Positions 979 to 29,743 of a DNA stretch of 44,930 bases are shown here, in pieces. The stretch is from a virus, in IMG/VR virus record IMGVR_UViG_3300030328_000378, positions 1 through 44,930 of that record; one strand, 5' to 3'. The notes under the pieces are model-generated. The model was given only the letters and a program-made list of their open reading frames with translations. It ran no database searches and had not been told where the DNA came from. Numbering within the stretch: the first letter of the stretch is position 1; each line of letters begins with the position of its first letter. The position numbers and the translations under genes are program-made.

Positions 979-2010
979 ATGAGTTGGTTATCTAAAAAAT
1001 GGGACCAGTTATCTGGTAAAAACCAAAAAGTAAGTACTAATACTATAAAAAATGAGTACAATCAAGCGTTTGCTGGTGCTAGAAAGACATATGGTGCGTT
1101 AGAAGAACGTGGTATGGATATGATGGACCCAAATTCGCAGTTCAACATAGACCAGAAAGAACGTATGGAAGGTTCTGCGGCAGATGCGGCGGCTATGAGT
1201 TCACGTATGGCTGGAAGAAATGCGGCAATGGCTGGTGGTTCTAATGCGGCGTCTTTAGCGGCTCAAACTGCATCAGGTGCTAACCAAGCTCAAGCTGGAG
1301 CTATTGATTCTTATAATAAGTATTTGAGTGGAGCTATGAGCCAAGGTGCTGGGATGGCAAGTGGTGCCGCTAATAATATGGCACAAATGAACCAAACTCA
1401 AATGAATGCTATATCTAATCAAAGACTTGCTAATGCTCAAATAGATTCACAGGCTACAGGTTTAGCTACAAATTTACTAGGTAAGGGTATAGGTATGGCT
1501 TTTGGAATGCCTCCTATGCAAAAAGGTGGTCCAATAAACGAAGGCTTACTTAAAAGCGTTCTTACAGATGAGATGAATAGTGATGGTAAAAACAAACAAA
1601 GTTCTTTAATATATTCTAAAGGCTTTGAAGCTGATGAACATTATGACCCAGACACTGATGAAATGTGGGATTATCAAGAAGCAACTGGTCCAAAAACTGG
1701 TAAAGATATAATGTATACTAGAGGTAAAGATGGACAGTTAATAAAGCAATATACTAAGCATTATGGAGGTTTGCTATCTGGTGTAAGAAATTTTGCAGAT
1801 AGAATTAAAGGACCTCAAAGAGTTGATGAATTACCTGAGGGTTGGTCTCCTGCTGATATGGATAAAGAAGGAAGCGATTTGTATATGCAAGATGGTGGTT
1901 ATGTAGAAAGTGCTTATGGAAATAAAGGTGGTATGTTATCTCAAGTTGCTGGACCTGATGGAACACCTATGAACATTAGGACTAGAATAGGAGGACAGTA
2001 CGTTGGGTAA
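979..2010 (+). CDS. Ala/Gly/Met-rich internal virion protein
   Basis: A 343-residue protein starting at the ATG after AAGGTGATATT. Residues about 60-180 are a low-complexity helical region extremely rich in Ala, Gly, Met, Asn and Gln, ending in an apolar segment (LGKGIGMAFGM). The C-terminal half is charged and carries short glycine motifs: MQKGGPI, MQDGGYV and NKGGM. The same QxGGx pattern continues in the next gene. Amphipathic Ala/Gly-rich proteins upstream of a giant virion protein are typical of internal or ejection proteins of podoviruses, which interact with the host envelope during DNA entry. That role is inferred from composition and location only. It overlaps the following gene by 8 bases. 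Confidence 0.65.
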   Translation: MSWLSKKWDQLSGKNQKVSTNTIKNEYNQAFAGARKTYGALEERGMDMMDPNSQFNIDQKERMEGSAADAAAMSSRMAGRNAAMAGGSNAASLAAQTASGANQAQAGAIDSYNKYLSGAMSQGAGMASGAANNMAQMNQTQMNAISNQRLANAQIDSQATGLATNLLGKGIGMAFGMPPMQKGGPINEGLLKSVLTDEMNSDGKNKQSSLIYSKGFEADEHYDPDTDEMWDYQEATGPKTGKDIMYTRGKDGQLIKQYTKHYGGLLSGVRNFADRIKGPQRVDELPEGWSPADMDKEGSDLYMQDGGYVESAYGNKGGMLSQVAGPDGTPMNIRTRIGGQYVG

Positions 2011-4309
2011 TAAATACAGCCCTTACCCCGGAGACATAATTGACGCTAAGCTAGAACCCGGAGAATATGTACTTAATAGAAACGCTGTTAATGCAATAGG
2101 TGAAGAAAAGCTTGATGAACTAAATAATAAAATAGCACCAAGATTTCAAGATGGTGGTTCTGTTGTTATAGAGAGAGATGGTAAACCAACAGGTGCTAAA
2201 GAACCTGCGATGCCTTGGCGTCAGAAAGTTAATCAATTCCTTATTAAAAAAAGAATGGACCATCTGGGAAAGAAAGACCCTCAATTAGCTTATTTTATGA
2301 GTGATGAATACGCTAATAAAAAGTGGGGTGGTCCTACTTATGTTAAAGGTAAATCATCATCTAAATTTTATGAAGATGCTAAAGGTTCTGTAGATGATTT
2401 CTTACAAGAAAGCGAAGTTACTTTTAAAGATGGCAAATTAAAAGATGCTATAGTGAAATCAAGGTTTGCTGAAAAAGTAAGAAATGGTGAGTATGGTGAT
2501 GCTGAAATAGATGAATACTTCGGTCTTAAAACTAATAAGGGGGAGTACAACGTAGACCCTGCAAAATGGTATAGTAAGATTAAAATGGCTGAGGGTGGTA
2601 AAGTAGGTCCCGGAGAACAAGCAAGGTTAGAAGCTGAGCATATGAGACAAGCTCAACAGATGGCTCAGTTTGACCAGTATATGCACGACCAAGGAGTTCC
2701 TACTTCTATTAGGGATGATATACAATTACCTATGCAAGAAGGAGCTTTCTTTGATAAAGGAGATTTTGATAACTACTTAAGTCAGTATGTTAATTTGCAC
2801 GATATAGGTGATTCACAGGGGAGAGCCCCTTGGCAAAAAGGATATGGGGAACTTCCCGGTATTGGTATGGACCACGAGATTCCTAGTATGGGATTAACTG
2901 GCTCTGAGCAAATACTTTCAGCATTAAAAGCTGGTAACCTTAGTCAAATAGATGAGTATAACCCAGCAATAAAGAAAGTATTAAAAGACAATCCGAAGCT
3001 CGGCTTTGAATATAATAAGCAAATGGATGTACTAAGAGAGAAGTATGGTCCTAAAGATTTACCTAGATTAGATAGCGATATTGCTTATAATTCAGACGGT
3101 TCAATAAGCGATGCTGATGATGCTTATTTACAACATAAACTAGACGAAAGAGATAAGCATATTGAACTTAAAGAAAGAGCTAAATATTTAAAAGACAATC
3201 CTGAAGCAATGGCAGAACATCAGAAAAAACTTGATGCTCAGCCTTCTATGTATGACGGAATGGATGAACCTCTTAAAATGAAACCTGCTACAAAAAGAGA
3301 ACAAGTGTTAGCAGAGCTAAGAAAAGGTATGGCTGGCAATCAAGATAATCCTTATAAAATAGGTTCACCCGGAAAAGGTATTAAAAAACACTTTGATAAA
3401 CTAGAAAAGAAAGTAGCTCGTAAAGAAAAATGGGATGCTTGGAAGTCTAAAATGAAAAAGAAGATTGGGAGCTTTGATGATATGAAGACATCATATGAGA
3501 ATGTAAACAAAGCTAGGGCTATGTATGCAAAACAACAGGAGAAAGTAAAAGCCCAACGTGGTGGATATATGAGACCAGATGGAAAACAAGGTTACTTTTT
3601 AGGTGGTTTAGCGGCGGCGGCGGCTCCAGCATTGTTAGGTAAATTAGGATTAGGTGCAGGAGCGGCGACAGCAGGTGCAGAAGCCGTAGCAGGTGGAGCA
3701 GATGGAGGAAGTTTGTTAGGACAAGCAGGTAAGTTTGGAACAAACTATCTTCATAATGCTAAAGCTGGATTAGGACAAATGAGTAAAGGTTTAAAATCTG
3801 AAATGGGAAACTCTGGTAAATCTTGGGGTGGTGCTTTAGGAGACTTACTTCAAACTGCATCAATGGCTCAAGGTTTTTCTGGACCAGATGGACCAAGGAA
3901 ACCAACTCCTACAGCAGAGAATATGGGTATGGACCAAGTAGGTGGTGATAAAACTCCACCACCACCAAGCGATACAACACCAACTGATAAAACAACAAAT
4001 GAAACACCAACTACAACTGAAACAGTAGAGAATAATGCTAACGCAGTAAAAGAAGCGGCTAAAGTAACCGGTACTGAAGCGGCTGAACCAGTCTCTCAAC
4101 AGGGACAAGTTGGAGATGAAACATTAGTACAAACTCCAATTACTGGAATTATAAACCCTGATGGCTCAACAACTGAGATACCTGTTTTAAATGCAGATGG
4201 TCAAGTAATACCAAACCCAGTTGGACCTAGAAAGCAAGATGGAACATTTCAAAGGGGTGGACCAGTAACGCTTGAAGGTTTTATACAGCAATCTTGGAGG
4301 AATATGTAA
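2003..4309 (+). CDS. large internal virion / ejection-type protein, 768 aa, repeated GG motifs
   Basis: It starts with TTG at 2003, inside the end of the previous gene, where GGAGGA provides the SD. The N-terminus contains LEPGEYVLNRNAVNAIG, a motif often seen in phage structural proteins with repeated GG signatures. Motifs FQDGGSV, AEGGKV, AQRGGYM and FQRGGPV recur along the chain. Residues about 200-500 are charged and helical (many Lys, Glu, Met). Residues about 525-580 are apolar and Gly/Ala-rich, a possible membrane-interacting segment. A Thr/Pro/Glu-rich linker follows, and the C-terminus ends in another GG motif. Probably an internal virion or pilot protein; the GG sites could be protease processing sites. 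No enzyme domain is recognised. Confidence 0.65.
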   Translation: MGNKYSPYPGDIIDAKLEPGEYVLNRNAVNAIGEEKLDELNNKIAPRFQDGGSVVIERDGKPTGAKEPAMPWRQKVNQFLIKKRMDHLGKKDPQLAYFMSDEYANKKWGGPTYVKGKSSSKFYEDAKGSVDDFLQESEVTFKDGKLKDAIVKSRFAEKVRNGEYGDAEIDEYFGLKTNKGEYNVDPAKWYSKIKMAEGGKVGPGEQARLEAEHMRQAQQMAQFDQYMHDQGVPTSIRDDIQLPMQEGAFFDKGDFDNYLSQYVNLHDIGDSQGRAPWQKGYGELPGIGMDHEIPSMGLTGSEQILSALKAGNLSQIDEYNPAIKKVLKDNPKLGFEYNKQMDVLREKYGPKDLPRLDSDIAYNSDGSISDADDAYLQHKLDERDKHIELKERAKYLKDNPEAMAEHQKKLDAQPSMYDGMDEPLKMKPATKREQVLAELRKGMAGNQDNPYKIGSPGKGIKKHFDKLEKKVARKEKWDAWKSKMKKKIGSFDDMKTSYENVNKARAMYAKQQEKVKAQRGGYMRPDGKQGYFLGGLAAAAAPALLGKLGLGAGAATAGAEAVAGGADGGSLLGQAGKFGTNYLHNAKAGLGQMSKGLKSEMGNSGKSWGGALGDLLQTASMAQGFSGPDGPRKPTPTAENMGMDQVGGDKTPPPPSDTTPTDKTTNETPTTTETVENNANAVKEAAKVTGTEAAEPVSQQGQVGDETLVQTPITGIINPDGSTTEIPVLNADGQVIPNPVGPRKQDGTFQRGGPVTLEGFIQQSWRNM

Positions 4310-5946
4310 TGTCTGAAGTTAAACCAATGAACTTATCTGGAGTATCTCACAACCCTCTTCAAGGAGGTGCGGCGAGAGGACAGGTATCAGACAATTTTAG
4401 AGAAGCTGAAAGAATTAGATTAGCTAAAAGACAATTAGCAAATCAAGAACATCGCAGTGAACAACAGCTTATTATTCAAAAAGCTCAGTTCGGTATGCAA
4501 AAGCAAATGAATGAATACCGAATAAAAGCTATGGATAGAGCTGAAGAAGACTATCAAAAGAAAAAGTTAGCAGAAAATTATATATTCTCTAACTACCCAC
4601 AACCCGGTCAAAGAACTTTAGATAATTTTTTAAAAGATGGCTTAACATATGGAGTTGGTGGTTATCAAAAAGCTAAAGAGAAATGGGTAAAGGAAGTAGG
4701 ACCTCACAGTTGGCAAGCATTTGAAAAGCATTATCAAGGTTTAAAACAAGCAGAAATGCAGAACCTTCAAAACTCTATGATATATGACCCAAGAAGTAAT
4801 ATGACTGAAGGACAGCATCGTAAAAAATATCAAGAGATGTTGCAAAAAATGGACCCTGCTATGAGACAAAACTTTTTAAATAGTCTTGATGGGTCTACTA
4901 GACAAATAATTGAATCACAATTCCCAATGCACAAAGATGTTGGTAGAAGATGGGAAGACTTTGTAACTGATACTGGATTATGGGTAGGTGAAAATCCTAT
5001 TAAAACTACATTAGGTGGTGCAAGTGCAATTATAGCTACTGGTTTTGCTATGAGAAAGCAACCTGTTAAACTGATAAAAGCTCTATTTCAAAATGAAGGT
5101 AAAGTCACTGCAAATATGCCAGAGATATTTAAAAAAGCATCTATTAAAATGGGTGACAAAACTGGTAAGGGTGTTATATCTTTAGAGGATATAGATATAG
5201 CTGTAAAAGATGGAGCATTAACTAAGGGACAAGCAAAGATTCTTAAAGATGGTGGTAGAGTTGTACCTGAAATGTTTAAAGGTAAACCCGGTCCAGTTAA
5301 AGATTTTATAGGACCTGAAAGAGTTAGTCACAAAAACATACCAAAAGTTAAAGATGACATCAACGCCTTAATGAAAGATGGAGTATTAGACCAGAAACAC
5401 GCAGACCAGTTAAAAGGCGTCATTGATGATATAGTAAGGAAAGGCGATGATTTAACTAGCGAAACTGTTGGTAAATACTTAGCTAAAAAACCTGACCAGT
5501 TTAAAGGTTTAATTAAAAGTTTAGAACACGGAACTAGCTCTGGCTTAATGCAGAAACTAGGTGGTTTCAGTGCATCAGGAATAGTAAAAGGTATAGGTTC
5601 TTTAGGACTTGGATTTGCTGGTGCGGCGGCTTTAGAATCTGGATTTGAAGCTGTTGCAGGTGACGATAATCCAAATCAAGAAGCTTGGGGTGAAGTTGGT
5701 AGCATAGGTGGTTTTAATGTTGCGGCTGGTGCAACGGGTGCAATAAGAACTATACAGAATAAAATTAATACACACGGACTAGCTAAGGTTATGCAAATGG
5801 TTGCTAAAAAAGGTGGTCCTAAATTAGCCGCTAGACTAATTGCTAAAGGAGCTTTAACTGGCACTGGCGTAGGCAGTGTTGTTGGAGGTGCTATGTTAGC
5901 GGCAGAAGCGGCGTATATTGCATATCTTATATCTACAATGGAATAA
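4309..5946 (+). CDS. internal virion protein with hydrophobic C-terminal region
   Basis: The ATG at 4309 overlaps the previous stop (TAATG) and follows GGAGGA at a good distance, so it is preferred over an in-frame TTG at 4294. The 545-residue product has a Lys/Gln/Glu-rich helical N-terminal third, a central charged region, an apolar segment near residues 235-250, and a C-terminal Gly/Ala-rich stretch (about residues 415-545) with several apolar segments, ending in AAYIAYLISTME. This pattern suits a membrane-active ejection protein. It is followed after 13 bases by the giant protein, with which it probably forms an ejectosome-like set. No catalytic motif seen. Confidence 0.65.
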   Translation: MSEVKPMNLSGVSHNPLQGGAARGQVSDNFREAERIRLAKRQLANQEHRSEQQLIIQKAQFGMQKQMNEYRIKAMDRAEEDYQKKKLAENYIFSNYPQPGQRTLDNFLKDGLTYGVGGYQKAKEKWVKEVGPHSWQAFEKHYQGLKQAEMQNLQNSMIYDPRSNMTEGQHRKKYQEMLQKMDPAMRQNFLNSLDGSTRQIIESQFPMHKDVGRRWEDFVTDTGLWVGENPIKTTLGGASAIIATGFAMRKQPVKLIKALFQNEGKVTANMPEIFKKASIKMGDKTGKGVISLEDIDIAVKDGALTKGQAKILKDGGRVVPEMFKGKPGPVKDFIGPERVSHKNIPKVKDDINALMKDGVLDQKHADQLKGVIDDIVRKGDDLTSETVGKYLAKKPDQFKGLIKSLEHGTSSGLMQKLGGFSASGIVKGIGSLGLGFAGAAALESGFEAVAGDDNPNQEAWGEVGSIGGFNVAAGATGAIRTIQNKINTHGLAKVMQMVAKKGGPKLAARLIAKGALTGTGVGSVVGGAMLAAEAAYIAYLISTME

Positions 5947-5959
5947 ATAGGGGGTAGCA

Positions 5960-8900
5960 TTGGCTGAGCCAAAAGAATGGTCTCCAAAGATGGATGAGAA
6001 TCAGATTCGAGGAGTCATAGACCAATATGCTAAATTTCCAGAGCTGTTTAATGATAGAGATGATGATTTAGAATCTCTAGAAGAACACGCATATTATTAC
6101 AAAATACCTTTCGCAAGAAGTAAGGAACATCAAGACGGCTATTTAACTCGTATGATTAAACAGGCTGGTCGTGGATGGGCTGAAGGTTTCTCTACGTTAC
6201 CAATGGAAAAAGTCGATGACTTTATTGGTACTGATATAGGTGGAGCCCCAGAAGATACTCACGAAGCGATAGCACGTAACTTAGGTCATCTTGCAGGTTT
6301 TGTAGGTTATTTACCCGGAGCTAAGGCATTAAAGTTTTTAGGTGCTCGTAAAATAGCGGCTGGATTTCAAGCTATTAAAGGTAAGAGTGCTCCAATGTTG
6401 GCGGCTAACTTTGCTCAAAAGAAAGTCGGTAATGTTATTGAACCTTTTATAAAAGACTTACCCGACTGGGCTACTACTGGTGTCTTTGCAGACGCTACTC
6501 AAGGAGCTTTTCATTTAGGTACAGCTAGTGCAGTATCTAGTTGGACTCACGGAGTAGATGAGATGTTTCACGCCGCAGGTTTTGGAGCTGGTGCTGGAGC
6601 AGTATTTAGAGGTATAGGTAACCTTAAAGGATTTGGTGAGCGTTTACAACCTAGTCAATTAAAGCCTAATGGTAGTCCCAATATGAAATTATTAAGCGAA
6701 GGACAGAAGGCTGACCTAGCGGCGAGAACTATGGCAGGTGCCGCTTTTCAAGGTTTACCTAGTACTATACAAGGTGCTACTACAGAAGAACAAGTATACG
6801 CATATGCAATGGGTGCTTTCTTTGGCTATAAAGAAATGCCTTATCAAACTAGAACTAGTAGAGAATTTTTACACGAAAGCATAAAGAACGATAATGGTCC
6901 AGACCCAGAGATGAATCCTCGTTGGGGTAAGATGACTAAGGAAATGAAGGATGTTATCAAGACTGACTTTAGAGAATTTTTTGGAGAAGCAGAGTCTCAA
7001 CATTTAGTATACGACTTAATAAAAGGAAAAGTTGATTTAACGGATATTGAGAAATTAGCTGAAGAATATAGAACGGGTATGGAGATTGACCCTGTTACTG
7101 GTGAAGTGTATTCTAAATCACTTACTAAACAGGAAATAGCAGAGTATAAAGAAGCTTTTATAAAAGACCCTAGATATGATGAATCTCAAGACCTTGATAT
7201 GCACATACAAGATATTGTTGATATTCCCGGAAGGCTAATTGGTAAAGGTGGTTACATAGAACAAGTGTTTCCTGATATTACACCAGTAGATAGAATAAAA
7301 CTGGCAGATAATATATATAAGAAATGGAGTGGGTTACACAATGGAAACACAAAGAAACCGAAGCAGGGAGCAGAGCAAGAAATCGTTAAGCATATTGAAG
7401 CAGAGACTGGGCGAAAGCTGGATGAAAATGAAGTTGGATGGTGGAAACGATGGGCTGAAAACACAAGAAAAAAGCAATGGGTTGAGCAAATTGAGATTAA
7501 AGATGGCGAAGTTGGTATGCTTAATGGTAAGACGAACTCGGTAGGTAATAAAAAAGATTTATCTCAACAGAAAATGATTATAGAAGAAATCTATGAGAGA
7601 AATTATGAAAGCTTATATGGTACAAAGCCACAACAAGAATGGTTTAGAGTATTAGACCACGTTATATGGAAAGATAAAGAGTATGATTTAGGTAGAGCTG
7701 AAACAAATATCGCAAGACAACAGGAAGTTGAAATAAGACTTAATCCTGAGCTTGATGGTATGAAACGTAATGAAATTAAAAAAGCGGCAGAAGCAAACGC
7801 TGAAAGAATAATGGCTGAAAGCTATCGTAAACTTCACGATAAAATGAGAGAAGATGGTTATTATTATTACGGTGGTAAAGGCGATGCTAAGAAAATGTAC
7901 TTTGTTAAATTGCATCCCCTTATTGAAAATAATCCTAAGCTCGTAGGTAAGTTAGCAAAAGAATCTTTAAAGCAATTTAGACTAGCACAGAATAAGAAAT
8001 TCCCAGATAGAGTTACAAAAAATCAAGAAGCTTATTCTGAAAGTTATATAAGATGGAAGAATAGACCTGAAAACGTAGCTTTAAGCGACACAAAAGCACA
8101 GAAGATATATAAAGAGATGTATGTATCTAATATGCTATATGAATTAAGTAACAATGGTTACGAAGTAACAGACGTACCTTCTTTTGGTAAGAACTTTGCT
8201 AAAGTATTAGATGGTGGTAAATATATAAACGACCCTAAAGCATTTAATAAAAGGGCACAGATATGGTTTAACTCTGGTTTATCTGCCAACCCTAGAGAGA
8301 TAGAAGCTTATTTAAAAGAAAGAGGCGTTAACGATTTACAAGGTACAGGAAATAGTCAGAAAAAATTCCGGGTAGGGTTGTTTTCTGAGGCTGATTCTAG
8401 GTTTGAACAAGATAAGATAAAGTTATCTGATGGTGCAGAAGCATATCTTGAAGCATCTGATGGTGCTATACTTGCTAGAGAAGAGGTCATAGATGCCTTA
8501 AATTGGGACAAAGGTCTTCCAACCGATGGGAAGTTCAATAAATCATTTATCGTGTCTAAGGACCCTAAATTAGGAGCTTTATTAGGTAAGTATGGTATGC
8601 AGTTAGCTACACCAGAACTATCAGCTTATATGAAGAAGAGAGGTATACATATGTTGATACCTGATTCTGCGGCTAAACAAGTTGGTGAGCGTAAACAATG
8701 GGTAGGTGAGTTAGACTTAGTTCCTGATTTGATTAATAAGGATATGAAGATAGACTTCACTGGTACACTGTTTAATGTACCTATAAGAGATTTTAGAACT
8801 GTTATGTCTGAAATCACTACACAAAAGTATTTAAAGAAAGTACAGTTACCTAAACAGATGTATTCTGTTTTATCAGCATTTGGATATAAGAATATAAATA

Positions 8901-11900
8901 GAGAATCTATTATGGAGATGTATGACACTCTTTCTAATAGAGCTATAATGGGAACTGAAGAAGGTAAAGCTGTACTAGCAGAATATAAAAACAATAAAAG
9001 TAAAGAAAATATTAAGAGAGTTGTAGATAATATAGAAGAGATACCGATAAATGAGCTATTTGATATATTAAGAAGTCCAAATAACCCTGAGTTATCACAT
9101 AAGATATACGAAAAGATAATGAAATTAAACCACGAATACGTTGCAAGTCTAGCTGAAGAAGGTGAGATGTCACGTAATGAAATGGATAGATATAAAGAAG
9201 GTGTTGCAGATTTTGAAAGCGTAGTTGAAAGATTAAACAGAGTATTCCCAGAGGGTTCTGTGGGTGCCTATATGCACAAGTTCTCTAGAGATTATCGTAT
9301 GCAAGCAATGCGTAATTATGTAGTACAGAAAATCACTAAACCTAAGATTGATAATAGTGCATCATCAAGAATGAGACCTTGGGAAGTTGGATTACAATTA
9401 CCAAATAAAAAGACTTCAGAATTAAGAGATAATCAAAACATATTTTTCCTTGACAATAACTTTAGAGACTTAGTTATTAGAGACTCAATGTTTAAGAAAG
9501 GCAGGATTACCTTAGGAGAGCTGTGGGACACCCGTGCTGATTATAAAGGAGCATTGAAAGAAAAGGTTGACGACATACTGATGGGGACCGTAATGAGAGT
9601 ACCGATGGATTCGATTAGTGGTGCCCACAGCTTAGAATTTGCTGGGTTTACTGGTGTAAAAGGTTATGGAAGTTTACTACATCCTAGAAGTATGAAAGCG
9701 TTAGGTGGTGCTGATTTAGACGGAGATAAAGCATTAATATTCTTTGGTGGAGAGTCTCACGGGTTCAGAAAATCCTGGCGGGAGATGTATGCAAGTCAGA
9801 AAAATGAGTACGTTGATAAAGCTACGAATATGGAGAAGCATAATAAAAATGCTGAAGACCCAATGGATGGTTTAACTTATGGTGAAAAACTTGCTATGAG
9901 GGACCCAGAACTACAAGCTAAAAGTGTTCATCAAACATCTCAATATTCTCCTTACTGGAGAGAGTTTATGAGTAGTGGTGCTTATCAAGGTCGTGAACAT
10001 CTTGGTACTGCTGTTACACAAAGGATGGCTATCTTAGGTGCTTATAATAGTTTAAGAGAGGCTGGTAACAATTATAACTATGATAAAGTTAGAATACGTG
10101 ATAATCAAGGTAATGATGTATTAGACAAGAATGGTAAACCTATATTTGAAAATGTTATAATGGGTAAAGATTTCTATAGTGTACCTTATTATGATTCATA
10201 TGCTAATGGTGGTAAAGGTCAGCTTAGAAGAATATTATTTGAAACTAAAAATACTGAACAAGATTTACAAAGATTTAGAGAAATGTCCAGAGCGGCGATT
10301 GCGTTAGGCTCTGACCCTATGGATGAGATGGGTATTCGTGGTGAGAAGTTTGGTCCTATGATACTTGACACCTTATTTAAATACAAAGTGTTTGATGTTG
10401 TAAAAGGTAAGACAGTTATGACTGAAGGTTCTAAAGCTGAAACTGCATCAGTTAACTCTGGTAGGGCTGATTATCTTAAAAAGAAAGGGTTACACAGTAC
10501 ATTTAATGAGTTAAATAGATTACTATATGGTAAAAATCATAATGATAACAGAAGATGGAACTATTCTGAAATAGCTGGTGGTGTAGAAAAGTTTAACTAT
10601 ATGCCTGCTGAAGCTAAAACTACCTTTCTACCTATGTTATCTAAAAGTATGAGAGGTATTGACTGGTCTGATAATGTATTCAGAAGAGTTAATGAGGGTA
10701 AATTAAATCAAATATACTTTGACCATAGAGAAGCCGTAGGTAAAAGTGACTGGTTAAAAGATGCAATGGGCAGAGAAACAATGTCTACTGTAATGGGTAA
10801 CTTTATTAAAAGAATATATGATAAGAAATTGTATACAAAAGAAGGTTTAGAAGCACTTGCTAATAGTGAAAAAGACTTTGTTGAATTTATAAGTGAAATG
10901 CAAGTAACTAAATTAGGCTTAGAAAAGCCTGTTATGGGACAGATACCCCGCAGTTTTCAACCTATACGTCAGTTTGATTATAACTATAGAAGAGCTTATT
11001 TGGAAAACTTAGTATTAAAAGGAGAAGATTTTTTAATTAACGATATTAGCGATATGGCATCTTTAAAAAGTATTACTGATGTTGTAAACAGAGGTAAGAT
11101 TCCTAGTGAAAGAATATCTGAAATACACGATAAAGTAGATGATATTAAGAATCAATCTGTTTGGAAAGCTAAAGAAAGGAGAAGCTTAGACAATGTCCTT
11201 AACGTCACTGATGCTGATGCTAAACAAAGCAAGGCAGTTAAACAAGCTCGTGAAGCGTTCGGAATTGATGATAAAGGTAGTGCGAAAATTGACCAAGTCC
11301 AAACGGACCAGTTAATACGAGACTACAAGATAAAATTATCACAACCTGAAAAAGACCTATTTGATATGTTATATATAGGTACATATTCTAAAGGTAATAA
11401 AAAGAAATTAGAGGCGGCTATTGAGCTATCTCATATTCCTAATCGTAGAAGAGATGCAGAGTTCTTATTTAAAATGTTAAGAAATACATCTTTAATGCGT
11501 GCTGGTCTCAGTTCTAAAGAAATAAGCGATGCTAGTCTGAAAGAGTTCTTTAACAATTATGAAGCCTTAATGAAGAGAACTAATCTTGAGTTAACTGAAT
11601 CACAGAAAAAGATTCTTACTAGAGAAGTAACGCCAGAAGATGTTACATCTTATAGAGATGAAGCTGGTAATATTGTAAAGAATGAATTAATAGATGGTCA
11701 AAACTTATCTGAAACTGATAGACTATACCTTGATGATATTGCTCCTTTTGTAGGATTACAAGAAGGTAAGATTAAAGACCCTGTACTAAAGCAAACTTAT
11801 TACAATTTAAAAGAACACTTAGACCATTACCATAACTTAGATGTAAGAAATTTAAATGGTTTATTTAGAGGTTTATTTAAGAAGAATTTAAATCAAGCTA

Positions 11901-14764
11901 ATAAAATGGATTTACAAACATTAGATAGATACCTAATGGATATGCGTACTGGTACTTGGTTTCAAAAGACAATGGACTGGATGACTGGTAAATCTAAAAA
12001 CCCTGAAATTAAAAGAGCTTATTATTGGATGTTTCCTAAAGCTATTAATAGAGACTTAATGAGAGAACCAGCAATGATGGAGTGGGTTGAAGATGTTGGT
12101 CCATATAAAGATAAGCTTGGTAATACTATAGAAAACGCTAGAACTGTTAGACCTACTGCTGTTATTGGAGAGATACAACAATTATCAGCACGTACACAAG
12201 AACTTTCTATGCAAACATTTGAAAATGAAGTAGGTGAATTTAGAGACGCATTAAGACCTTATGTATCTGCACTTAAAGATGGCGATGTCTTATTTCAAAT
12301 AGCTGTAGCTCAAAGAGAGCTTGGTTATATGAGAAACAAATTAAGACCTAGATTAAAAGGTTCTTCTTCTAAGTTAACTGAAGCTGAAATGCCTTACATT
12401 GAAAATTGGAACGCTGTTAAGGGCACTTACGATAAAATTAAGGGTGAGCAATACGTTATTCCTCTGGAAGGAGGAAATGTAAAGATGACCGGTGAGCAGG
12501 TTGTTAATAAGATTAATAACATTATTACTAGAGCTAATACAGTTACTCATAGATGGTTACAAGGTAATCAAGAGTCTGTTAATAAATGGTTAAAATTATC
12601 TGAAGATAAAAATGGTAATGTTACTTGGAAAGGATTAGATAAATTAAGAGTAAAGTTTCACGATTACGTTAATGATACTGTACGCCGTAACAAGTCTATT
12701 CCTATTGAAGAGCTTGGTATAGATGGTATTAGACAAATAGCTAAGCGTATACTTATTAGTCAAACTCCGTTTAGATTAAGGAATCCTAAATCACTAGCTG
12801 AACAACGTAGGAACCTAGAGATAGCGTCTTTCGACCCTACTGGAGACTTAGGTGCTGAATACTACTATCCTCATATGTCTTTCAATAGAAAGTTAGCTGA
12901 TAAAAAACTTAGAAGTGCAATTAAAAGAGTTGTAGAAGATTCTACGTTAACACCTGAAGAAATTACTAGAGAGGTAAAGAAGATTAATTACCAGTATAAA
13001 CAACTTACTGGTGACTTTATGGCTAAAGATGAAATGGGTGAAAACTTTGACATAATGCAAGAAGCTTTAGTAGAACAAGCCTCTAAAAAGAAATTAAAAG
13101 AGAAGACTATTTTAGGTAGCAATTTAAAAAAGGTTGGTAATCAATTTAGTCGTGAAGCACATATAGGTGGTTGGGACCTTAATCCAGAAGCTTATGAATC
13201 TTATATGAAAAACGCTATTAATACATTTTATAAACAAGCAATGCAGGTTACTGCAAGAACTGCAATGCACAACTTTAATAATACATTCTATAGAACTACT
13301 AAAGATGGAGACTTAACTGGTGCTTGGATGAATTTCTTTAAACTTTATACTCAAAGTGCTATGGGTTACCCTACACATATACCTGAAAAAGTTATGAATG
13401 ACCCTAAGATGAAGATAAAAGGCACAGCTTATAAGTGGTTAGCTGATAGTACAGCTAAGAAAAGAATTGATTATATGAAGAAAAGATTAGGTGTTGGTCG
13501 TAAAGAGCTGGAAAAATGGAACTTAGATGAAACTGTTATTGATGAATTAAGTGGAACAGAATACACTCAGTTGCAAGGTTGGGGTGCGTTAGAAGCTAAA
13601 TGGCAATTAGCATCGTTATTAGCTCACCCTAAAAGCTCTATTGCTAACCTATATGGTGGTACAGTACACACTTGGATAAGTGCAGGCTATGATAACCTTA
13701 AGAAAGCTAGAGATTTTAACTATCTACGTACAAATATTAATCCTAAATGGAAAAGTATGAAAGATGTTGAAAAATGGATGCAAGAATTAGGTATCATTGA
13801 AGAATTTTTAATTCACGAAGCTGGACTTAATCCTCAACTTAAATCAAAGAAGACTCAAGCATTTGTCAGTGACGCTATTAAGAAGATTAAAAGAGACCCT
13901 AATATGTCTGACGAAAGCTTACTGCAATTAAGTAAAAAGTATGGTTTAACAGACAGAGCATTTGCGGCGGCAAGTTCGTTTATGCGTGTACCTGAAAGAA
14001 TTTTAAGACGTGATTCATTTATGGCTCACTACTTACAAGCAAAAAACAAATTCGGTGGAGCAATCAAGGATTACAACTCGCCATTCCTTATTAATATGGC
14101 GAAGCGTGGCGTTAAGGGAACGCAGTTCTTGTATTCTGCACCGTACAGACCTTTATGGACAAATAGTACTCTGGGTAGGGTGTTCAGTCGTTTCCAGCTA
14201 TGGAGCTGGAACTCCGTTAGGTTCAGAAATGATGTAATAAGGCGTGCATATATTGCAGGGTTTCAAGAAGGTACTCCTGAATTTGAGACTTTTAAAAGAC
14301 TTGCAGTTGCAGATTTATTTATGTTAGGTATGGCTAATATGTTTCAATATAGTTTATTTGAAAACGCATTACCTGCACCTTGGAATTGGTTCCAAGATAC
14401 TGCTGATTGGTTAATGGGTGATGAAGAAGCTAGAGAAAGAGCGTTCTATGGCTCTGCTATAGGTCCTGTTCAAGCAGTAACTCCTCCAGCATTACGTTTA
14501 TTACCACCTATGTTTAAGTGGATGATGAGTGACGATGCTAGTGAATTAACCGATTACTACTTGTGGACCATACCACCATTCGGTAGATTAGCACGGGATA
14601 TAGTAGGACCCGGCGGTATGCTAGAAAATCCCTACTATTCTATAACTAAATTTACTGGTATGCCTGTAATGCAAGCCGCTAAGTTAATAAAAGGTGAAAA
14701 ACCTAAAGCACGCAGAGGTAAATTTGACTACTCAGAGGAGATTGAAGAAGATGCCAATGCCTAA
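5960..14764 (+). CDS. giant virion protein (2934 aa) with double-psi beta-barrel RNA polymerase-like core
   Basis: TTG start after AGGGGGT. Near residue 1252 the chain reads GGADLDGDKALIFF, preceded by MRVPMDSISGAHSLEF and LHPRSM. This follows the order of the multisubunit RNA polymerase beta-prime active site (R-P-T-x-H, LHP, ADFDGDQMAVH), with D1252, D1254 and D1256 as presumed Mg ligands. Upstream, ASDGAILAREE (near residue 834) and K858/K861 could belong to the partner beta-type barrel, as in single-chain enzymes of the YonO and crAss-like gp66 group. Residues 1-240 contain Gly/Ala-rich apolar stretches. The last 500 residues resemble C-terminal regions of large polyvalent phage proteins. 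Residues about 1340-1370 could be a bridge-helix analogue. Size and position among virion genes suggest packaging and injection. The polymerase function is inferred from one strong motif and its spacing. Confidence 0.75.
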   Translation: MAEPKEWSPKMDENQIRGVIDQYAKFPELFNDRDDDLESLEEHAYYYKIPFARSKEHQDGYLTRMIKQAGRGWAEGFSTLPMEKVDDFIGTDIGGAPEDTHEAIARNLGHLAGFVGYLPGAKALKFLGARKIAAGFQAIKGKSAPMLAANFAQKKVGNVIEPFIKDLPDWATTGVFADATQGAFHLGTASAVSSWTHGVDEMFHAAGFGAGAGAVFRGIGNLKGFGERLQPSQLKPNGSPNMKLLSEGQKADLAARTMAGAAFQGLPSTIQGATTEEQVYAYAMGAFFGYKEMPYQTRTSREFLHESIKNDNGPDPEMNPRWGKMTKEMKDVIKTDFREFFGEAESQHLVYDLIKGKVDLTDIEKLAEEYRTGMEIDPVTGEVYSKSLTKQEIAEYKEAFIKDPRYDESQDLDMHIQDIVDIPGRLIGKGGYIEQVFPDITPVDRIKLADNIYKKWSGLHNGNTKKPKQGAEQEIVKHIEAETGRKLDENEVGWWKRWAENTRKKQWVEQIEIKDGEVGMLNGKTNSVGNKKDLSQQKMIIEEIYERNYESLYGTKPQQEWFRVLDHVIWKDKEYDLGRAETNIARQQEVEIRLNPELDGMKRNEIKKAAEANAERIMAESYRKLHDKMREDGYYYYGGKGDAKKMYFVKLHPLIENNPKLVGKLAKESLKQFRLAQNKKFPDRVTKNQEAYSESYIRWKNRPENVALSDTKAQKIYKEMYVSNMLYELSNNGYEVTDVPSFGKNFAKVLDGGKYINDPKAFNKRAQIWFNSGLSANPREIEAYLKERGVNDLQGTGNSQKKFRVGLFSEADSRFEQDKIKLSDGAEAYLEASDGAILAREEVIDALNWDKGLPTDGKFNKSFIVSKDPKLGALLGKYGMQLATPELSAYMKKRGIHMLIPDSAAKQVGERKQWVGELDLVPDLINKDMKIDFTGTLFNVPIRDFRTVMSEITTQKYLKKVQLPKQMYSVLSAFGYKNINRESIMEMYDTLSNRAIMGTEEGKAVLAEYKNNKSKENIKRVVDNIEEIPINELFDILRSPNNPELSHKIYEKIMKLNHEYVASLAEEGEMSRNEMDRYKEGVADFESVVERLNRVFPEGSVGAYMHKFSRDYRMQAMRNYVVQKITKPKIDNSASSRMRPWEVGLQLPNKKTSELRDNQNIFFLDNNFRDLVIRDSMFKKGRITLGELWDTRADYKGALKEKVDDILMGTVMRVPMDSISGAHSLEFAGFTGVKGYGSLLHPRSMKALGGADLDGDKALIFFGGESHGFRKSWREMYASQKNEYVDKATNMEKHNKNAEDPMDGLTYGEKLAMRDPELQAKSVHQTSQYSPYWREFMSSGAYQGREHLGTAVTQRMAILGAYNSLREAGNNYNYDKVRIRDNQGNDVLDKNGKPIFENVIMGKDFYSVPYYDSYANGGKGQLRRILFETKNTEQDLQRFREMSRAAIALGSDPMDEMGIRGEKFGPMILDTLFKYKVFDVVKGKTVMTEGSKAETASVNSGRADYLKKKGLHSTFNELNRLLYGKNHNDNRRWNYSEIAGGVEKFNYMPAEAKTTFLPMLSKSMRGIDWSDNVFRRVNEGKLNQIYFDHREAVGKSDWLKDAMGRETMSTVMGNFIKRIYDKKLYTKEGLEALANSEKDFVEFISEMQVTKLGLEKPVMGQIPRSFQPIRQFDYNYRRAYLENLVLKGEDFLINDISDMASLKSITDVVNRGKIPSERISEIHDKVDDIKNQSVWKAKERRSLDNVLNVTDADAKQSKAVKQAREAFGIDDKGSAKIDQVQTDQLIRDYKIKLSQPEKDLFDMLYIGTYSKGNKKKLEAAIELSHIPNRRRDAEFLFKMLRNTSLMRAGLSSKEISDASLKEFFNNYEALMKRTNLELTESQKKILTREVTPEDVTSYRDEAGNIVKNELIDGQNLSETDRLYLDDIAPFVGLQEGKIKDPVLKQTYYNLKEHLDHYHNLDVRNLNGLFRGLFKKNLNQANKMDLQTLDRYLMDMRTGTWFQKTMDWMTGKSKNPEIKRAYYWMFPKAINRDLMREPAMMEWVEDVGPYKDKLGNTIENARTVRPTAVIGEIQQLSARTQELSMQTFENEVGEFRDALRPYVSALKDGDVLFQIAVAQRELGYMRNKLRPRLKGSSSKLTEAEMPYIENWNAVKGTYDKIKGEQYVIPLEGGNVKMTGEQVVNKINNIITRANTVTHRWLQGNQESVNKWLKLSEDKNGNVTWKGLDKLRVKFHDYVNDTVRRNKSIPIEELGIDGIRQIAKRILISQTPFRLRNPKSLAEQRRNLEIASFDPTGDLGAEYYYPHMSFNRKLADKKLRSAIKRVVEDSTLTPEEITREVKKINYQYKQLTGDFMAKDEMGENFDIMQEALVEQASKKKLKEKTILGSNLKKVGNQFSREAHIGGWDLNPEAYESYMKNAINTFYKQAMQVTARTAMHNFNNTFYRTTKDGDLTGAWMNFFKLYTQSAMGYPTHIPEKVMNDPKMKIKGTAYKWLADSTAKKRIDYMKKRLGVGRKELEKWNLDETVIDELSGTEYTQLQGWGALEAKWQLASLLAHPKSSIANLYGGTVHTWISAGYDNLKKARDFNYLRTNINPKWKSMKDVEKWMQELGIIEEFLIHEAGLNPQLKSKKTQAFVSDAIKKIKRDPNMSDESLLQLSKKYGLTDRAFAAASSFMRVPERILRRDSFMAHYLQAKNKFGGAIKDYNSPFLINMAKRGVKGTQFLYSAPYRPLWTNSTLGRVFSRFQLWSWNSVRFRNDVIRRAYIAGFQEGTPEFETFKRLAVADLFMLGMANMFQYSLFENALPAPWNWFQDTADWLMGDEEARERAFYGSAIGPVQAVTPPALRLLPPMFKWMMSDDASELTDYYLWTIPPFGRLARDIVGPGGMLENPYYSITKFTGMPVMQAAKLIKGEKPKARRGKFDYSEEIEEDANA

Positions 14765-14921
14765 TCACTGTGCAGAATGCGACAAACCATTAGAAAATAC
14801 TGATGGTTGGATATGTGAATCCTGTCAAGAAAAAGAGAAAAGAAAAAAAGTTTATACTGGTGATACCGGTGAACCTATGGACTGGTTACCTTCTACTAAA
14901 GGTGGTGAAAATAGAAGATGA
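14751..14921 (+). CDS. small zinc-ribbon protein
   Basis: The start is placed at ATG 14751, which has GAGGAGATTGAAGAAG just upstream; an in-frame ATG at 14694 lies deep inside the giant gene and is unlikely. The 56-residue product has CAEC near its start and CESC about 17 residues later, a four-cysteine zinc ribbon, followed by a basic helix (KEKRKKV) and a short polar tail. It overlaps the end of the giant protein gene by 14 bases and the next gene by 4 (ATGA), so all three are co-translated. Two-CxxC proteins of this size often bind nucleic acid or act as assembly factors; the actual role is unknown. Confidence 0.7.
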   Translation: MPMPNHCAECDKPLENTDGWICESCQEKEKRKKVYTGDTGEPMDWLPSTKGGENRR

Positions 14922-16501
14922 AAGCTGTTGGTAAAGTATTAAGCGAAGCCCTTGAGAAATATGGTCCAGATGGATTCAGTCAGGGTATGCGTAAATCTGC
15001 ACGAGAACTAGTAGAAGATGTAAATATGAAACAGGTAGGTATTGGTGCGGCTTTAGTTGCTCCACCTGTAGCTGGTGCATTACAAGAGAGTGAAACTGTA
15101 GACTTTACAAGTGATACTGCAAAAGACGCATATCGTACTATAGGTGTAATTGGTGGGACCTTAGCTGGTGCGTTAGCGTCTCACAAAGCAATAAAAATGG
15201 CAGGAAGATTAACACGTAATCAACCTTGGAAAAGAACTGATGTTACTAAATCTTTTATGGAAGGAATGGACAACACCTTAATGCCTAATGTCCTTGCACC
15301 AGAGAAAAAAGCAAGTTTTTATGCTGGTCAACCATTAAAAGCTGTATTAGAAGAAGGTTATTCAGCCTCTAAAAGAGCTGTAAGTAGACTTGTTAATCCT
15401 AAAGAGAGCATAGCGGCTAAAAGAACTGGTTTAAATAAACGTCAAGTTGAATTAGCTGATGATTTTGATAGACTTTTAAAAGAAGAGTCTGATGCTATGC
15501 GAAATATGACCTATAAAAAAGGTCAAAGAGGATATGTTACTGAATTAAAAGGGATAACTGATAGAATTAAACAAGGTATTAAGGTATTACACCATAAATA
15601 TATCAATGATTTTAGCAACGCTGGTATATTTAAAGACTATTATGACCTTGAAACACCCCTTGCTGATTATGCAAGACGCTTTTTAACGCCTACTACGTAC
15701 CAGAATCTAGTAAAAGATGCGGGTATACCCGGTAATATTGGTAAAGAAGCCCTTACTAATATGTTAAAAGTGCAAGGATTTAAAACTCCTGTAGATAAAA
15801 TGAAGTATCTTCAGTTAAATACTAAGGGTGTGAAGATGGGTGATATGTTAAGAGACATTCAATGGGACCCACGTTCGTATAAACTGTTTACTAAAATGCA
15901 AGACGTTACTGATATGACCAGAAAAGAGGTTATTAAAGAGATGGAAGAAGTATTTGGTAGGGGTGCAGTTAAAAAACTTAAAGGTTCTTCTCAAAAACTA
16001 CAGATTATAATGTCTCCTAAGTATAAAAGTAATTTTGATTGGGGTGGTAGTGCAGGTTCACTTATATGGGACCCCAGAAAGCCCGGTAAAATGCAATTCT
16101 TTGGTACTGATGGTAGAGACTTATTTGGTATGAAAGCTGGTGATGACATTATAAATGTATCTCCTTTCAAAGAAATAAGCATTCCTGAAATTAAAAAGAT
16201 AATTGAAAAAGCTGATAAAACTCCTAATGTTGTGCCTGTTAAACGTAAACGCCGCACTGCTAAAGAGTATGAAAGTATGAGCGATAAAGAAGCTAAACAA
16301 GTTATCAACCGTTCTAGAATGATTAGCAATGAAGATTACGAAGCCTTACAAAAGATTCCTGAAACATATAGAAAAGCTTATAAAGACCCTATAACAATGA
16401 AAGAATTAGCTGAATTTGCTGGTACTAGGGGAGCATTAATTGCCGGTGGCGTTGGTGGTTTCTATGGTACTTATGCCTTAGCTGATGAAATATTAGAATA
16501 G
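14918..16501 (+). CDS. 527-aa hypothetical virion-associated protein
   Basis: The ATG overlaps the zinc-ribbon stop (ATGA). The product is basic and mixed helical, with two Gly/Ala-rich apolar segments near the N-terminus (around GIGAALVAPPVAGAL and TIGVIGGTLAGALA) and one at the C-terminus (RGALIAGGVGGFYGTYALA). The middle (residues 150-430) is Lys-rich with scattered Gly-Trp segments and no recognised catalytic motif. The apolar ends and the position directly after the giant protein suggest another injected or inner-virion protein. It is the last gene of the plus-strand block, followed by a terminator 25 bases later. Confidence 0.65.
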   Translation: MKAVGKVLSEALEKYGPDGFSQGMRKSARELVEDVNMKQVGIGAALVAPPVAGALQESETVDFTSDTAKDAYRTIGVIGGTLAGALASHKAIKMAGRLTRNQPWKRTDVTKSFMEGMDNTLMPNVLAPEKKASFYAGQPLKAVLEEGYSASKRAVSRLVNPKESIAAKRTGLNKRQVELADDFDRLLKEESDAMRNMTYKKGQRGYVTELKGITDRIKQGIKVLHHKYINDFSNAGIFKDYYDLETPLADYARRFLTPTTYQNLVKDAGIPGNIGKEALTNMLKVQGFKTPVDKMKYLQLNTKGVKMGDMLRDIQWDPRSYKLFTKMQDVTDMTRKEVIKEMEEVFGRGAVKKLKGSSQKLQIIMSPKYKSNFDWGGSAGSLIWDPRKPGKMQFFGTDGRDLFGMKAGDDIINVSPFKEISIPEIKKIIEKADKTPNVVPVKRKRRTAKEYESMSDKEAKQVINRSRMISNEDYEALQKIPETYRKAYKDPITMKELAEFAGTRGALIAGGVGGFYGTYALADEILE

Positions 16502-21985: not shown

Positions 21986-22842
21986 TCTTCCTCCTTGTAT
22001 TTTAGGATTTCGTTAGATATAGCACTATACTCAAACGGGAGTATCTTCTGAGCAAGAGGTTTTAGTCGTGAACCGACTACTCTCTCGTCATACGCCTCAA
22101 ATGAGATATAATACTTTCCATCGTCTTTAGACGCTGTTGTATAACCAATAACGTCAGCTTTAGCGGCTAAGCTATAGCCAAGACCTCGAGGAAGTTCTGG
22201 TGCTAATTGTACCTTTCCGTCTTGCATCTGAGATGTTTTGGAATGACTGACTAACACTAGGTTTCCGCCTTTCTTTTTCATTAGGTCTTGAAAGCGTTTA
22301 AGAACATCTAGGTTTTTACGCCTAGCTTTGCCCCAATCGGCTCCCCATTGACCTTCTCCCATAGCAGTGATTCCTAACTCATTAATGACTGCAAATTCTA
22401 TCCATTCATTAACTTGTCCTATAGTATCAATTACTATGGTGTCATACGGCAAGTTGTCCCACTCTTTAGCAAACCAGTTATATATCTCTATCATAGAATA
22501 TACATCTTGTGGTTTACCTTTATCTTCGCCAGAACGATGCTTAAAGCCACGCTCATTTGAAGGGACGACTTCTTGTTTAGGTTGACCATTTTCAACCACT
22601 TGTTTTCCATCCTTCATTACAGGACGGATAGGTGGGTTCAGACTTGTACAGGTAACTACATTAGCATTGTTAACAAAGTCAGAGCCCAAGTCAGTGTCGA
22701 TGATTATTACACCTTCACTGCCTAGTGGGCTCCACTTTGAAACTGCTGTAGTTTTTCCTGTTTTAGGCTGACCTATGATTAAGTATGTCAATCCCGATGG
22801 CATTGCTGTCCAATCGGTCGAGACTTTCCTTACTTGTATCAA
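21982..22842 (-). CDS. Sak4-like RecA-fold recombination ATPase
   Basis: A 286-residue ATPase: Walker A GQPKTGKTT (residues 24-32), Walker B TIVIDTIG near residue 135, and a sensor-like LVLVSHS near 205. The compact single-domain RecA fold next to SSB and a Gp157-like gene is the usual setting of Sak4 single-strand annealing recombinases. Start is TTG at 22842 with a perfect AAGGAGGT six bases upstream. Its first 80 bases overlap the end of the E1 gene in another frame, an unusually long overlap. Confidence 0.8.
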   Translation of the reverse strand: MIQVRKVSTDWTAMPSGLTYLIIGQPKTGKTTAVSKWSPLGSEGVIIIDTDLGSDFVNNANVVTCTSLNPPIRPVMKDGKQVVENGQPKQEVVPSNERGFKHRSGEDKGKPQDVYSMIEIYNWFAKEWDNLPYDTIVIDTIGQVNEWIEFAVINELGITAMGEGQWGADWGKARRKNLDVLKRFQDLMKKKGGNLVLVSHSKTSQMQDGKVQLAPELPRGLGYSLAAKADVIGYTTASKDDGKYYISFEAYDERVVGSRLKPLAQKILPFEYSAISNEILKYKEEE

Positions 22843-23560
22843 TAGATACCTCCTTACTTGTTACAGGTTTAATTAAAGTACCAAATTCTACCATATTTGG
22901 GTTCAGGCTGGTCCAAATATAGTCATAATATACAAGCTGTGCAACTATATTATATACTTGTGCCAATCCTAATGATACAATATGATTCGTAGCAAAGACT
23001 GTGTGTTTCATACTACAAGGTGCTTGTGGTACAGTATGCGTGGGTACCCAGTGCTTATCATAGACCTCTATGTGAGCTGGAGTGCACGTTACCATCTCTA
23101 CACTAGTGGCACCCATACGCAAGTCAATGAAAAATGACCTATCCCATACAGGATGTGCCCAGTATTCGTGAGCTGTCTCTTTCCATTTGTTGAACACCAT
23201 TCTTCTTGATTCCATATCGTCAGTGCAAACTATCATTTTAGAGGTAATCTTATCGCTTATGCCAAAGTTCTCCATTGGTATAAACTCCTGCCAGTCCTCT
23301 GCGTATCTCTGGAACAACCCTTGAGCTGAATCACGCTTAGCGTTACCACTTTCATCAAGTGGATATGCTGTGGTACTTAAATTATGGTCCTCTATAACGT
23401 CTCCGTCATAACCGATAACTTTGTGCCAACCCATCATAGCTAAACCTTGTATTAAGAATGAGCCAATGCCACCCAATCCTACTACTGATATTTCATTTAA
23501 CTGCTGTAACGGTACTAAATCCTTATTTCTAAGGAATCTTGTTTTTATTTTACTTCCCAC
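22763..23560 (-). CDS. E1-like (ThiF/MoeB) adenylyltransferase
   Basis: A 265-residue Rossmann-fold activating enzyme. The ATP loop is GLGGIGS (residues 28-34). The next strand ends GYDGDVIEDHNL, the E1 D-x-D-x(4)-N signature (D52, D54, N60), with K75 nearby as presumed ATP ligand. VCTDDMESRR (D114/D115, R119) matches the E1 CxD motif, and DLRMG follows. C182 (PQAPCSM) is a candidate catalytic cysteine; no CxxC zinc pair is seen. Start is GTG at 23560 with AAGGAG, inside the end of the upstream gene. Expected role: adenylate the C-terminal glycine of the Ubl at 26764 and pass it to the E2. Dedicated E1-like enzymes in PRTRC, Bil and CBASS systems are the nearest known analogues. Confidence 0.85.
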   Translation of the reverse strand: MGSKIKTRFLRNKDLVPLQQLNEISVVGLGGIGSFLIQGLAMMGWHKVIGYDGDVIEDHNLSTTAYPLDESGNAKRDSAQGLFQRYAEDWQEFIPMENFGISDKITSKMIVCTDDMESRRMVFNKWKETAHEYWAHPVWDRSFFIDLRMGATSVEMVTCTPAHIEVYDKHWVPTHTVPQAPCSMKHTVFATNHIVSLGLAQVYNIVAQLVYYDYIWTSLNPNMVEFGTLIKPVTSKEVSIDTSKESLDRLDSNAIGIDILNHRSA

Positions 23561-23982
23561 TCGACAAACTCCTTTAACATTGCGTGTGCCGCTTCTTCCG
23601 AACCGAACATAGCAACGTCCTTTATGCGTGTAGCTTCTTCGTAAAGCTTATTACGCTGGGTTAAAATACTATTGTTTTCTTTCTGCATATCATCTGCAAG
23701 TTTCTTTTTAAACTCTACATAACCTTTTAACATAGGTTCTATATCAATACTTCCTAATGAACTACCAGACCAAGCTGATTCAGGTCCACTATTTAATACT
23801 AAATCAATCGCTTCCCATATTTTAGCTATTTCTTGAGGGTATCTAATTTCCCCATTAGCCAAGCCCATCTTAGCGATTTCTTTATTACCGGCTGAAGAAA
23901 CATCTTTCAACTCGTTAACTTTCTGTGCAGTGATTTCATCAATCCTATTACAGAAATACTTCTTTTGTGGTACAGTCATCAT
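23545..23982 (-). CDS. helical hypothetical protein inside the Ubl cassette
   Basis: A 145-residue, mostly helical protein with a coiled-coil-like C-terminal half (EFKKKLADDMQKENNSILTQRNKLYEEATRI is spread over about residues 90-120) and an apolar central helix. It starts at an ATG with AAGGAG, after a 294-base non-coding stretch, and overlaps the E1 gene by 16 bases. It has no Cys-rich or enzyme motif. Its place between JAMM and E1 genes suggests a partner, adaptor or substrate of the conjugation system. Function unknown. Confidence 0.7.
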   Translation of the reverse strand: MMTVPQKKYFCNRIDEITAQKVNELKDVSSAGNKEIAKMGLANGEIRYPQEIAKIWEAIDLVLNSGPESAWSGSSLGSIDIEPMLKGYVEFKKKLADDMQKENNSILTQRNKLYEEATRIKDVAMFGSEEAAHAMLKEFVEWEVK

Positions 23983-24019
23983 AACTGTGTTCTCCTTATT
24001 TTATTTATTAAGACAATGA

Positions 24020-24147
24020 AACAATGCTCCCTCCTACTATCCATTGGACGGTGGAGATAACACTTCCGTGTGAGAATGTGATAAAAAACACACTGGGAAT
24101 CAAAGAACTCCTGTGTTCAACTTCATACTTCGGTCAGGAGCATTGTT
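24020..24147. other. candidate structured element, 11-bp closing stem
   Basis: In the gene-free stretch 23983-24276, AACAATGCTCC (24020-24030) is the perfect inverse of GGAGCATTGTT (24137-24147), enclosing 106 bases with shorter inverted repeats (CTCC/GGAG, ACAC/GTGT, GAAC/GTTC). Such a multibranch layout suggests a structured RNA or leader. The strand is not certain. Confidence 0.45.
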
Positions 24148-24170
24148 ATGTATGTGAAAGGAATAATGTC

Positions 24171-24244
24171 GGGGGCTAGGCGGCGGCGTTTAACTCGCTG
24201 TCGTAAATTTGGGATGCGACCAAAATTCAGAGCAACCCAGCCCC
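24171..24244. other. candidate structured element, tRNA-sized three-way junction
   Basis: GGGGCT/AGCCCC closes a 73-base unit. On the plus strand, GCGGCGGCG pairs with CGCTGTCGT through three G-U pairs (24180-24204), and AATTTGG pairs with CCAAAATT. It is tRNA-sized but lacks T-arm and anticodon-arm logic on either strand. The wobble pairs favour a plus-strand RNA, opposite to the surrounding genes. Confidence 0.35.
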
Positions 24245-24276
24245 TTAATCAAATATACACTAAAACATTCATTATA

Positions 24277-26680: not shown

Positions 26681-26718
26681 TGCGACTCCTATTTAATTTA
26701 ATCTTTTACTCTCTTCAT

Positions 26719-26750
26719 CAGTGGGGAACCCTTGCGAGTCCCCCTTACTG
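26719..26750 (-). promoter_or_regulatory. stem-loop between Ubl and E2 genes
   Basis: On the minus strand CAGT-AAG-GGGGA pairs with TCCCC-ACTG around an 11-base loop, in the 83-base spacer between the Ubl stop and the E2 start. It could attenuate or protect mRNA so that Ubl exceeds E2. No U tract follows, so full termination is unlikely. Confidence 0.45.
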
Positions 26751-26763
26751 AATCTCTATTCGC

Positions 26764-27202: not shown

Positions 27203-27241
27203 AAATGCGTCTCCTTTTATTAGGGTTAATTGAAAATTTAA

Positions 27242-28033: not shown

Positions 28034-28044
28034 TGTGGGTTGGA

Positions 28045-29719: not shown

Positions 29720-29743
29720 GTATATCACGTACTCCCATTCTAC

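Follow-up and report, generated by a model that had tools for sequence, protein, structure and literature searches.

A giant protein of uncultured phages contains a predicted two-barrel RNA polymerase core within a proposed virion ejection protein

The window analysed here is the whole of IMG/VR virus record IMGVR_UViG_3300030328_000378, a 44,930-base stretch from an uncultured phage that lacks end repeats. On its plus strand, positions 5960-14764 encode a giant protein of 2,934 amino acids, which we propose to combine a virion RNA polymerase with an ejection-type protein. Its TTG start is supported by the resemblance of the first residues, LAEPKEWSP, to the consensus start of its relatives, MAxPxxFxP. 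The gene is the last of a cluster of large open reading frames (ORFs) on one strand, which is also the strand of the terminase, portal and capsid genes. Upstream lie a 768-amino-acid ORF (2003-4309, plus strand) with a weak match to a PHROG tape-measure family (E = 2.9e-4) and, directly adjacent, a 550-amino-acid ORF (4294-5946, plus strand) that can be judged by position only; both are proposed to encode co-ejected virion proteins. A preliminary description of this DNA had called the upstream genes ejection-type, which their position supports but family matches do not, as none could be assigned to the upstream neighbours. The 527-amino-acid ORF of unknown function directly downstream on the same strand (14918-16501) has homologues, by tblastn, in 48 of 163 fetched loci.

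The head genes follow further along the plus strand, with a terminase large subunit (32184-33701; phrog_38, E = 1.8e-94), a portal protein (33719-35890; phrog_156, E = 2.9e-82) and a major capsid protein (36884-38209; phrog_1328, E = 6.6e-22) that matches capsid proteins of Roseobacter, Vibrio, Caulobacter and Microcystis phages. The portal falls into the PHROG of P22-like portals, in agreement with the P22-like head module inferred earlier. This organization recurs across the family: at least two same-strand ORFs of at least 350 amino acids precede the giant gene in all 42 distinct loci that extend far enough upstream, and the 19 large contigs of the family all contain the polymerase core, in one copy each, while 18 of them contain portal and terminase genes. 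A T7-fold single-chain RNA polymerase (PF00940) is absent from the window and from 18 relatives, while the T7 positive control was recovered at E = 9.9e-110.

The leftward gene block encodes a DnaB-like helicase-primase, Sak4, a Gam-like protein and an HNH/endonuclease VII. Despite the helicase-primase and Sak4, no DNA polymerase gene was recognised among the window ORFs searched, and the record possibly lacks part of the genome. A 2OG-Fe(II) oxygenase (31,591-32,211, plus strand; phrog_61, E = 1.2e-29) is encoded immediately ahead of the terminase gene. Three minus-strand genes within 22,763-26,970 may form a phage ubiquitin-like conjugation operon, comprising a ThiF/E1-like protein (22,763-23,560; E = 3.7e-9), a Prok-JAB-like protein (24,277-25,164; E = 2.9e-4, below the cut-off) and a 68-amino-acid ORF of beta-grasp appearance (26,764-26,970; ThiS E = 0.095).

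A single-copy, strongly conserved noncoding element at 29,590-29,752 separates the leftward operon from the rightward terminase and head operon. Its invariant core, CGTACTCCCATTCTAC(R)G(Y)AATTTT, is preceded by approximately 140 nt that carry conserved AGCAGGGG, TCAAC, CCCC and GTGAAAACG pieces, and the core 15-mer is present in 53 IMG/VR stretches, most of which have the same flanks. The element has no Rfam match, and its automatic consensus fold comprises four pairs only, without covariation; it could be a packaging site, a structured RNA, or a promoter or leader used by the packaged polymerase. A clustering of contig ends approximately 500-650 bases from this 29.7 kb element was discarded, because unrelated matches of the same scan show equal spacing. 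On the minus strand, 27,203-28,045 comprises 840 nt without a long ORF, of which 27,488-27,928 is 73% identical to one relative (L185); the stretch folds better than 20 of 20 shuffles (z = -2.2), has no match in Rfam and is possibly a large noncoding RNA. No repeated promoter-like motif that exceeded chance-like repeats emerged from a scan of the DNA upstream of the leftward genes.

The giant protein carries the layout of an RNA polymerase active site at residues 1212-1264 (MRVPMDSISGAHSLEFAGFTGVKGYGSLLHPRSMKALGGADLDGDKALIFFGG), with aspartates at 1252, 1254 and 1256. The pieces MRVPMDSISGAH...LLHPRSMKALGGADLDGDKALIFF sit where the preliminary description, which had identified the motif in ORF 5960-14764 from the sequence alone, had placed them. 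Within it, DLDGD (residues 1252-1256, 9713-9727) is the proposed Mg2+-binding catalytic loop, and the succession RxP ... LLHP ... DxDGD marks the core of a proposed beta-prime-like barrel, DPBB-A (residues ~1208-1262, 9581-9745). In the first alignment, residues 1201-1265 form one of the most invariant blocks of the family, and 1205-1265 rank top within the N-terminal two thirds, which argues that the motif did not arise by chance. Since a motif-seeded search selects for the motif itself, we scored conservation on loci obtained with C-terminal seeds and counted only the 55 that reach the site. All three aspartates are kept in 55 of 55, as DxDGD in 54 and as DLDAD in one; this sole exception is L170. 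Variable aspartates would have refuted the initial assignment, which is instead borne out on this point.

Conservation extends to the other predicted elements of the core. Lys861, Lys877 and Lys906 are invariant (alignments A2 and A4) in the proposed beta-like barrel DPBB-B, whose approximate limits (residues ~836-947, 8465-8800) are inferred from model strands; that these lysines face the active site is not established. The pattern G-R..LG.AV is invariant in the 37-residue proposed bridge helix (residues ~1331-1367, 9950-10060), an assignment inferred from the model. Some family members contain insertions around these elements. The L008-L012 group has a GNAT acetyltransferase-looking insertion within the proposed beta-like barrel region (alignment A1 columns 154-300), and L007 (9299-11944) has a large insertion directly after DLDGD. 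In alignment A4, the cpYpsA/SLOG family PF12694 is matched by one member other than L007 (E = 5.4e-16), and a DprA-like PHROG by one member.

The AlphaFold2 model of residues 620-1680 (7817-10999), computed with 58 family sequences as input, reached a pLDDT of 89.1 and a pTM of 0.87. With Foldseek against the PDB, only three matches have E values below 0.001, namely phi14:2 gp66 (3.2e-8) and two QDE-1 entries, and the further matches listed are cellular RNA polymerase chains. VIA-align 2 placed QDE-1 at Z 15.5 (506 residues, 4.8 A) and RDR2 at 14.5, followed by P32 gp64 (12.2), P74 gp62 (11.9), gp66 (11.6, 632 residues) and P23-45 gp96 (10.6); lower matches are beta-prime-type subunits, aligned mostly from model residue ~500 onward. 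In BFVD, the models closest to the core are the unnamed A0A516LW39 and A0A516LAI4 (22-26% identity), with crAss-like proteins next. The DxDGD loop lies between a model helix (623-628) and strand (638-643), and the bridge-helix-like helix (712-748) comes after it. The barrel limits and the bridge helix represent our reading of the model without a measured superposition, and catalytic geometry was not measured. The absence of a double-psi barrel around D1252-D1256 would likewise have refuted the earlier assignment; a barrel fold that matches RNA polymerases is predicted there. By prediction and comparison, residues 620-1680 thus appear to form a complete single-chain two-barrel polymerase core with both barrels, the DxDGD loop, the lysines and the bridge-like helix, the activity of which is inferred.

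The kinship with crAss-like polymerases that the preliminary description had suggested holds at the level of the fold and also in an in-register profile alignment. Comparing the family with a profile built from gp66 and eight relatives, hhalign returned a score of 51.9 (E = 1.5e-4 for a single comparison) over 315 columns in one order, as against at most 26.1 for 40 column shuffles, 18.8 for the reversed profile and 23.1 for the C-terminal half of the giant protein. The alignment runs from the lysine block SAAKQVG (K906), placed on SAvKVG of the crAss gp66 proteins, to DxDGD, with RVPMDS on RIPNQG and GGADLDGDK on TGSDFDIDK. Neither gp66 nor gp96 as a single sequence found the giant-protein family, and tblastn gave no match at the level of gp66 homology. 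The sequence homology to gp66 proteins is therefore detectable, with the methods used, only with profiles on both sides.

Other sequence searches leave the family isolated. Single-sequence and profile searches of the giant protein against Pfam, PHROGs and PDB sequences gave no match, and as a result such genomes are annotated without a polymerase. Family profiles against PDB sequences still gave none, the giant protein matched nothing in 50,697 named-phage records, no relatives were found in 84,980 species genomes (GTDB species), and the divergent members L093 and L086, used as queries, found no named phage either. The cultured phages with a related capsid (CRP-810, Kuura and VS-ABTNL-3) were rejected as carriers of the giant protein for want of a match, and no DxDxD was found in their proteins of 1.4-2.0 thousand residues. 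Within viral contigs, by contrast with these null results, seeds outside the motif yielded 13 relatives with 36-65% identity, motif seeds 132 and C-terminus seeds 261, all of them in viral contigs, and relatives are present in at least 130 such contigs. We found no description of the family in the literature searched, a statement that does not extend to the tables of the survey of viral two-barrel polymerases mentioned in PMC10770324, which may list it.

Outside the core, the giant protein consists of regions of a different nature. Residues 1-619 (5960-7816) are family-conserved, Gly/Ala-rich and of unknown fold, and no clear transmembrane helix is seen in them on a Kyte-Doolittle scale. The membrane-type ends attributed to the protein at the outset find no support, the best 19-residue Kyte-Doolittle stretch reaching at most 1.22 against the usual cut-off of 1.6. 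The C-terminal half (residues 1740-2934, 11177-14761), proposed to be an ejection or inner-core part, is modelled as all-helical with moderate confidence (pLDDT 72, pTM 0.65). It is conserved as strongly as the core, without having a polymerase fold, and residues 2550-2850 are the most conserved segment of the entire protein. Among 961 PDB chains, its top three matches are T7-type inner-core proteins, 7eyb_I (Z 6.3), 9jyy_I (6.2) and 9vvp_L (5.3), the last of which is the E1004 core; Z scores of 5-6 are under the safe level of the tool for helical models. Weaker matches in BFVD include 'protein inside capsid D', 'internal protein D' and large polyvalent proteins. No sequence link to T7 gp16 was found, since a profile that combined it with five relatives scored 22.0, within the range of the shuffles (up to 25.9). 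The designation of this half as gp16-like is thus suggestive only and depends on a predicted structure.

The interpretation that we strongly favour is that the giant protein is a single-chain DPBB DNA-dependent RNA polymerase residing in a virion ejection protein and injected for the early genes, even though data on its activity, on the virion proteome and on promoters are lacking. In podovirus-like form, it most likely corresponds to the tape-measure fusion of P23-45. Packaging in the virion, which is inferred from gene position and architecture and has not been shown, we consider highly likely; early transcription by the giant protein is likewise inferred, and we regard it as probable. Given the polymerase core in the giant protein, the phages of this family probably deliver an RNA polymerase of their own to the host cell. 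The large proteins encoded next to it would join the helical C-terminal half in an internal core that leaves the virion together with the DNA. The polymerase would then arrive in the cell no later than the genome, remain attached to the entry channel and carry out transcription of the first phage genes without need of the host polymerase, the use of promoters at this step being an inference. A coupling of transcription to entry has been proposed for P23-45 gp96 and suggested for crAss-like and N4 fusions (PMC10770324), and transcription of the first genes independently of the host polymerase has been shown for gp66 of the crAss-like phage phi14:2 (PMC7886860).

An active two-barrel polymerase need not be injected, and could instead be produced inside the cell after infection, as are YonO and P23-45 gp64, with the fusion serving some other use. 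Non-virion two-barrel polymerases exist and match the model well, as the Z scores of P32 gp64 and P74 gp62 attest. We nevertheless hold this to be unlikely: the known non-virion forms are short, at 592-593 residues for those aligned here, whereas nearly all untruncated members of the present family have 2.8-3.6 thousand; the giant gene is one of several large ORFs clustered on the strand that also carries the head genes; and a C-terminal half as conserved as the core, without a polymerase fold, is not what such a reading would suggest. The high rank of QDE-1 and plant RDR2, both copiers of single-stranded templates, leaves room for an enzyme that acts on RNA or single-stranded DNA, in primer synthesis or RNA copying, and not as a transcriptase of double-stranded DNA. 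Against this, gp66, gp96 and gp64 are grouped together with these enzymes and are regarded as transcriptases (PMC10770324, PMC7886860), and the phage encodes a primase-helicase-like protein of its own, so that we give a QDE-1-like activity very little weight.

Least plausible of all is that the protein is a large polyvalent or ejection protein in which the polymerase fold persists as a relic with a structural or DNA-binding role only. The polyvalent proteins among the BFVD neighbours of the C-terminal half and the extra domains inserted in family members would be compatible with this, but a relic would lose the three aspartates, which are retained in every relative covering them, in a loop block that is among the most invariant. 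A broader form of the preferred reading, that of a virion-injected transcriptase, can be advanced only tentatively, as we hold it with somewhat less than even confidence: that short-tailed phages of the environment share a separate and widespread family of virion RNA polymerases, whose fusion to the DNA-ejection core couples transcription to genome entry, and that this family arose independently of the P23-45 fusion and is structurally near the ancestor of the eukaryotic RNAi polymerases.

Comparison with known systems places the protein among several precedents. Like T7 gp16 (internal virion protein D), it is the product of the last large gene of what is proposed to be an ejection cluster, and the three best PDB matches of its C-terminal half are of the T7-type core, whereas sequence-profile support is absent and the Z scores are low for a helical model. 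The virion RNA polymerase of N4 is a packaged protein of approximately 3,500 residues, similar to the giant protein in size class and logic; it differs in having the T7 fold, of which no example was found in the window or in 18 relatives. QDE-1 and RDR2 have the highest structural Z scores of all, yet share only 10-11% identity in the aligned part and are cellular enzymes that use a single-stranded template and have no virion part. Similar to the giant protein, phi14:2 gp66 (PDB 6vr4) has two barrels in a single chain of giant size, but with DFDID in place of DLDGD; LLHP precedes the motif only in the present protein, and the C-terminal halves differ. The crAss-like phages themselves have genomes of approximately 100 kb, in contrast to contigs of approximately 40-56 kb with a P22-type portal in this family; the window encodes such a portal together with the phrog_38 terminase, crAss marker genes not having been searched individually. 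P23-45 gp96 (PDB 8h2m) also joins a two-barrel polymerase, with DFDGD and a Z of 10.6, to a virion protein that enters the cell envelope (PMC10770324). Its partner, however, is the tape measure in the tail of a long-tailed phage, and its polymerase is N-terminal, while the polymerase here is central and is followed by an all-helical C-terminal half.

A virion two-barrel polymerase within a giant fusion protein is thus already known from crAss-like phages and P23-45. What is new is a family unseen by the sequence libraries used, associated with P22-type portals, fused to another kind of partner and widespread in viral metagenomes. Part of the family may already figure in the survey mentioned in PMC10770324. 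It would add another phage-carried two-barrel polymerase family to those of the crAss-like phages and P23-45, make a physical coupling of genome entry and early transcription through the ejection apparatus testable, and broaden the known sample of the phage group that is thought to have given rise to the eukaryotic RNAi polymerases.
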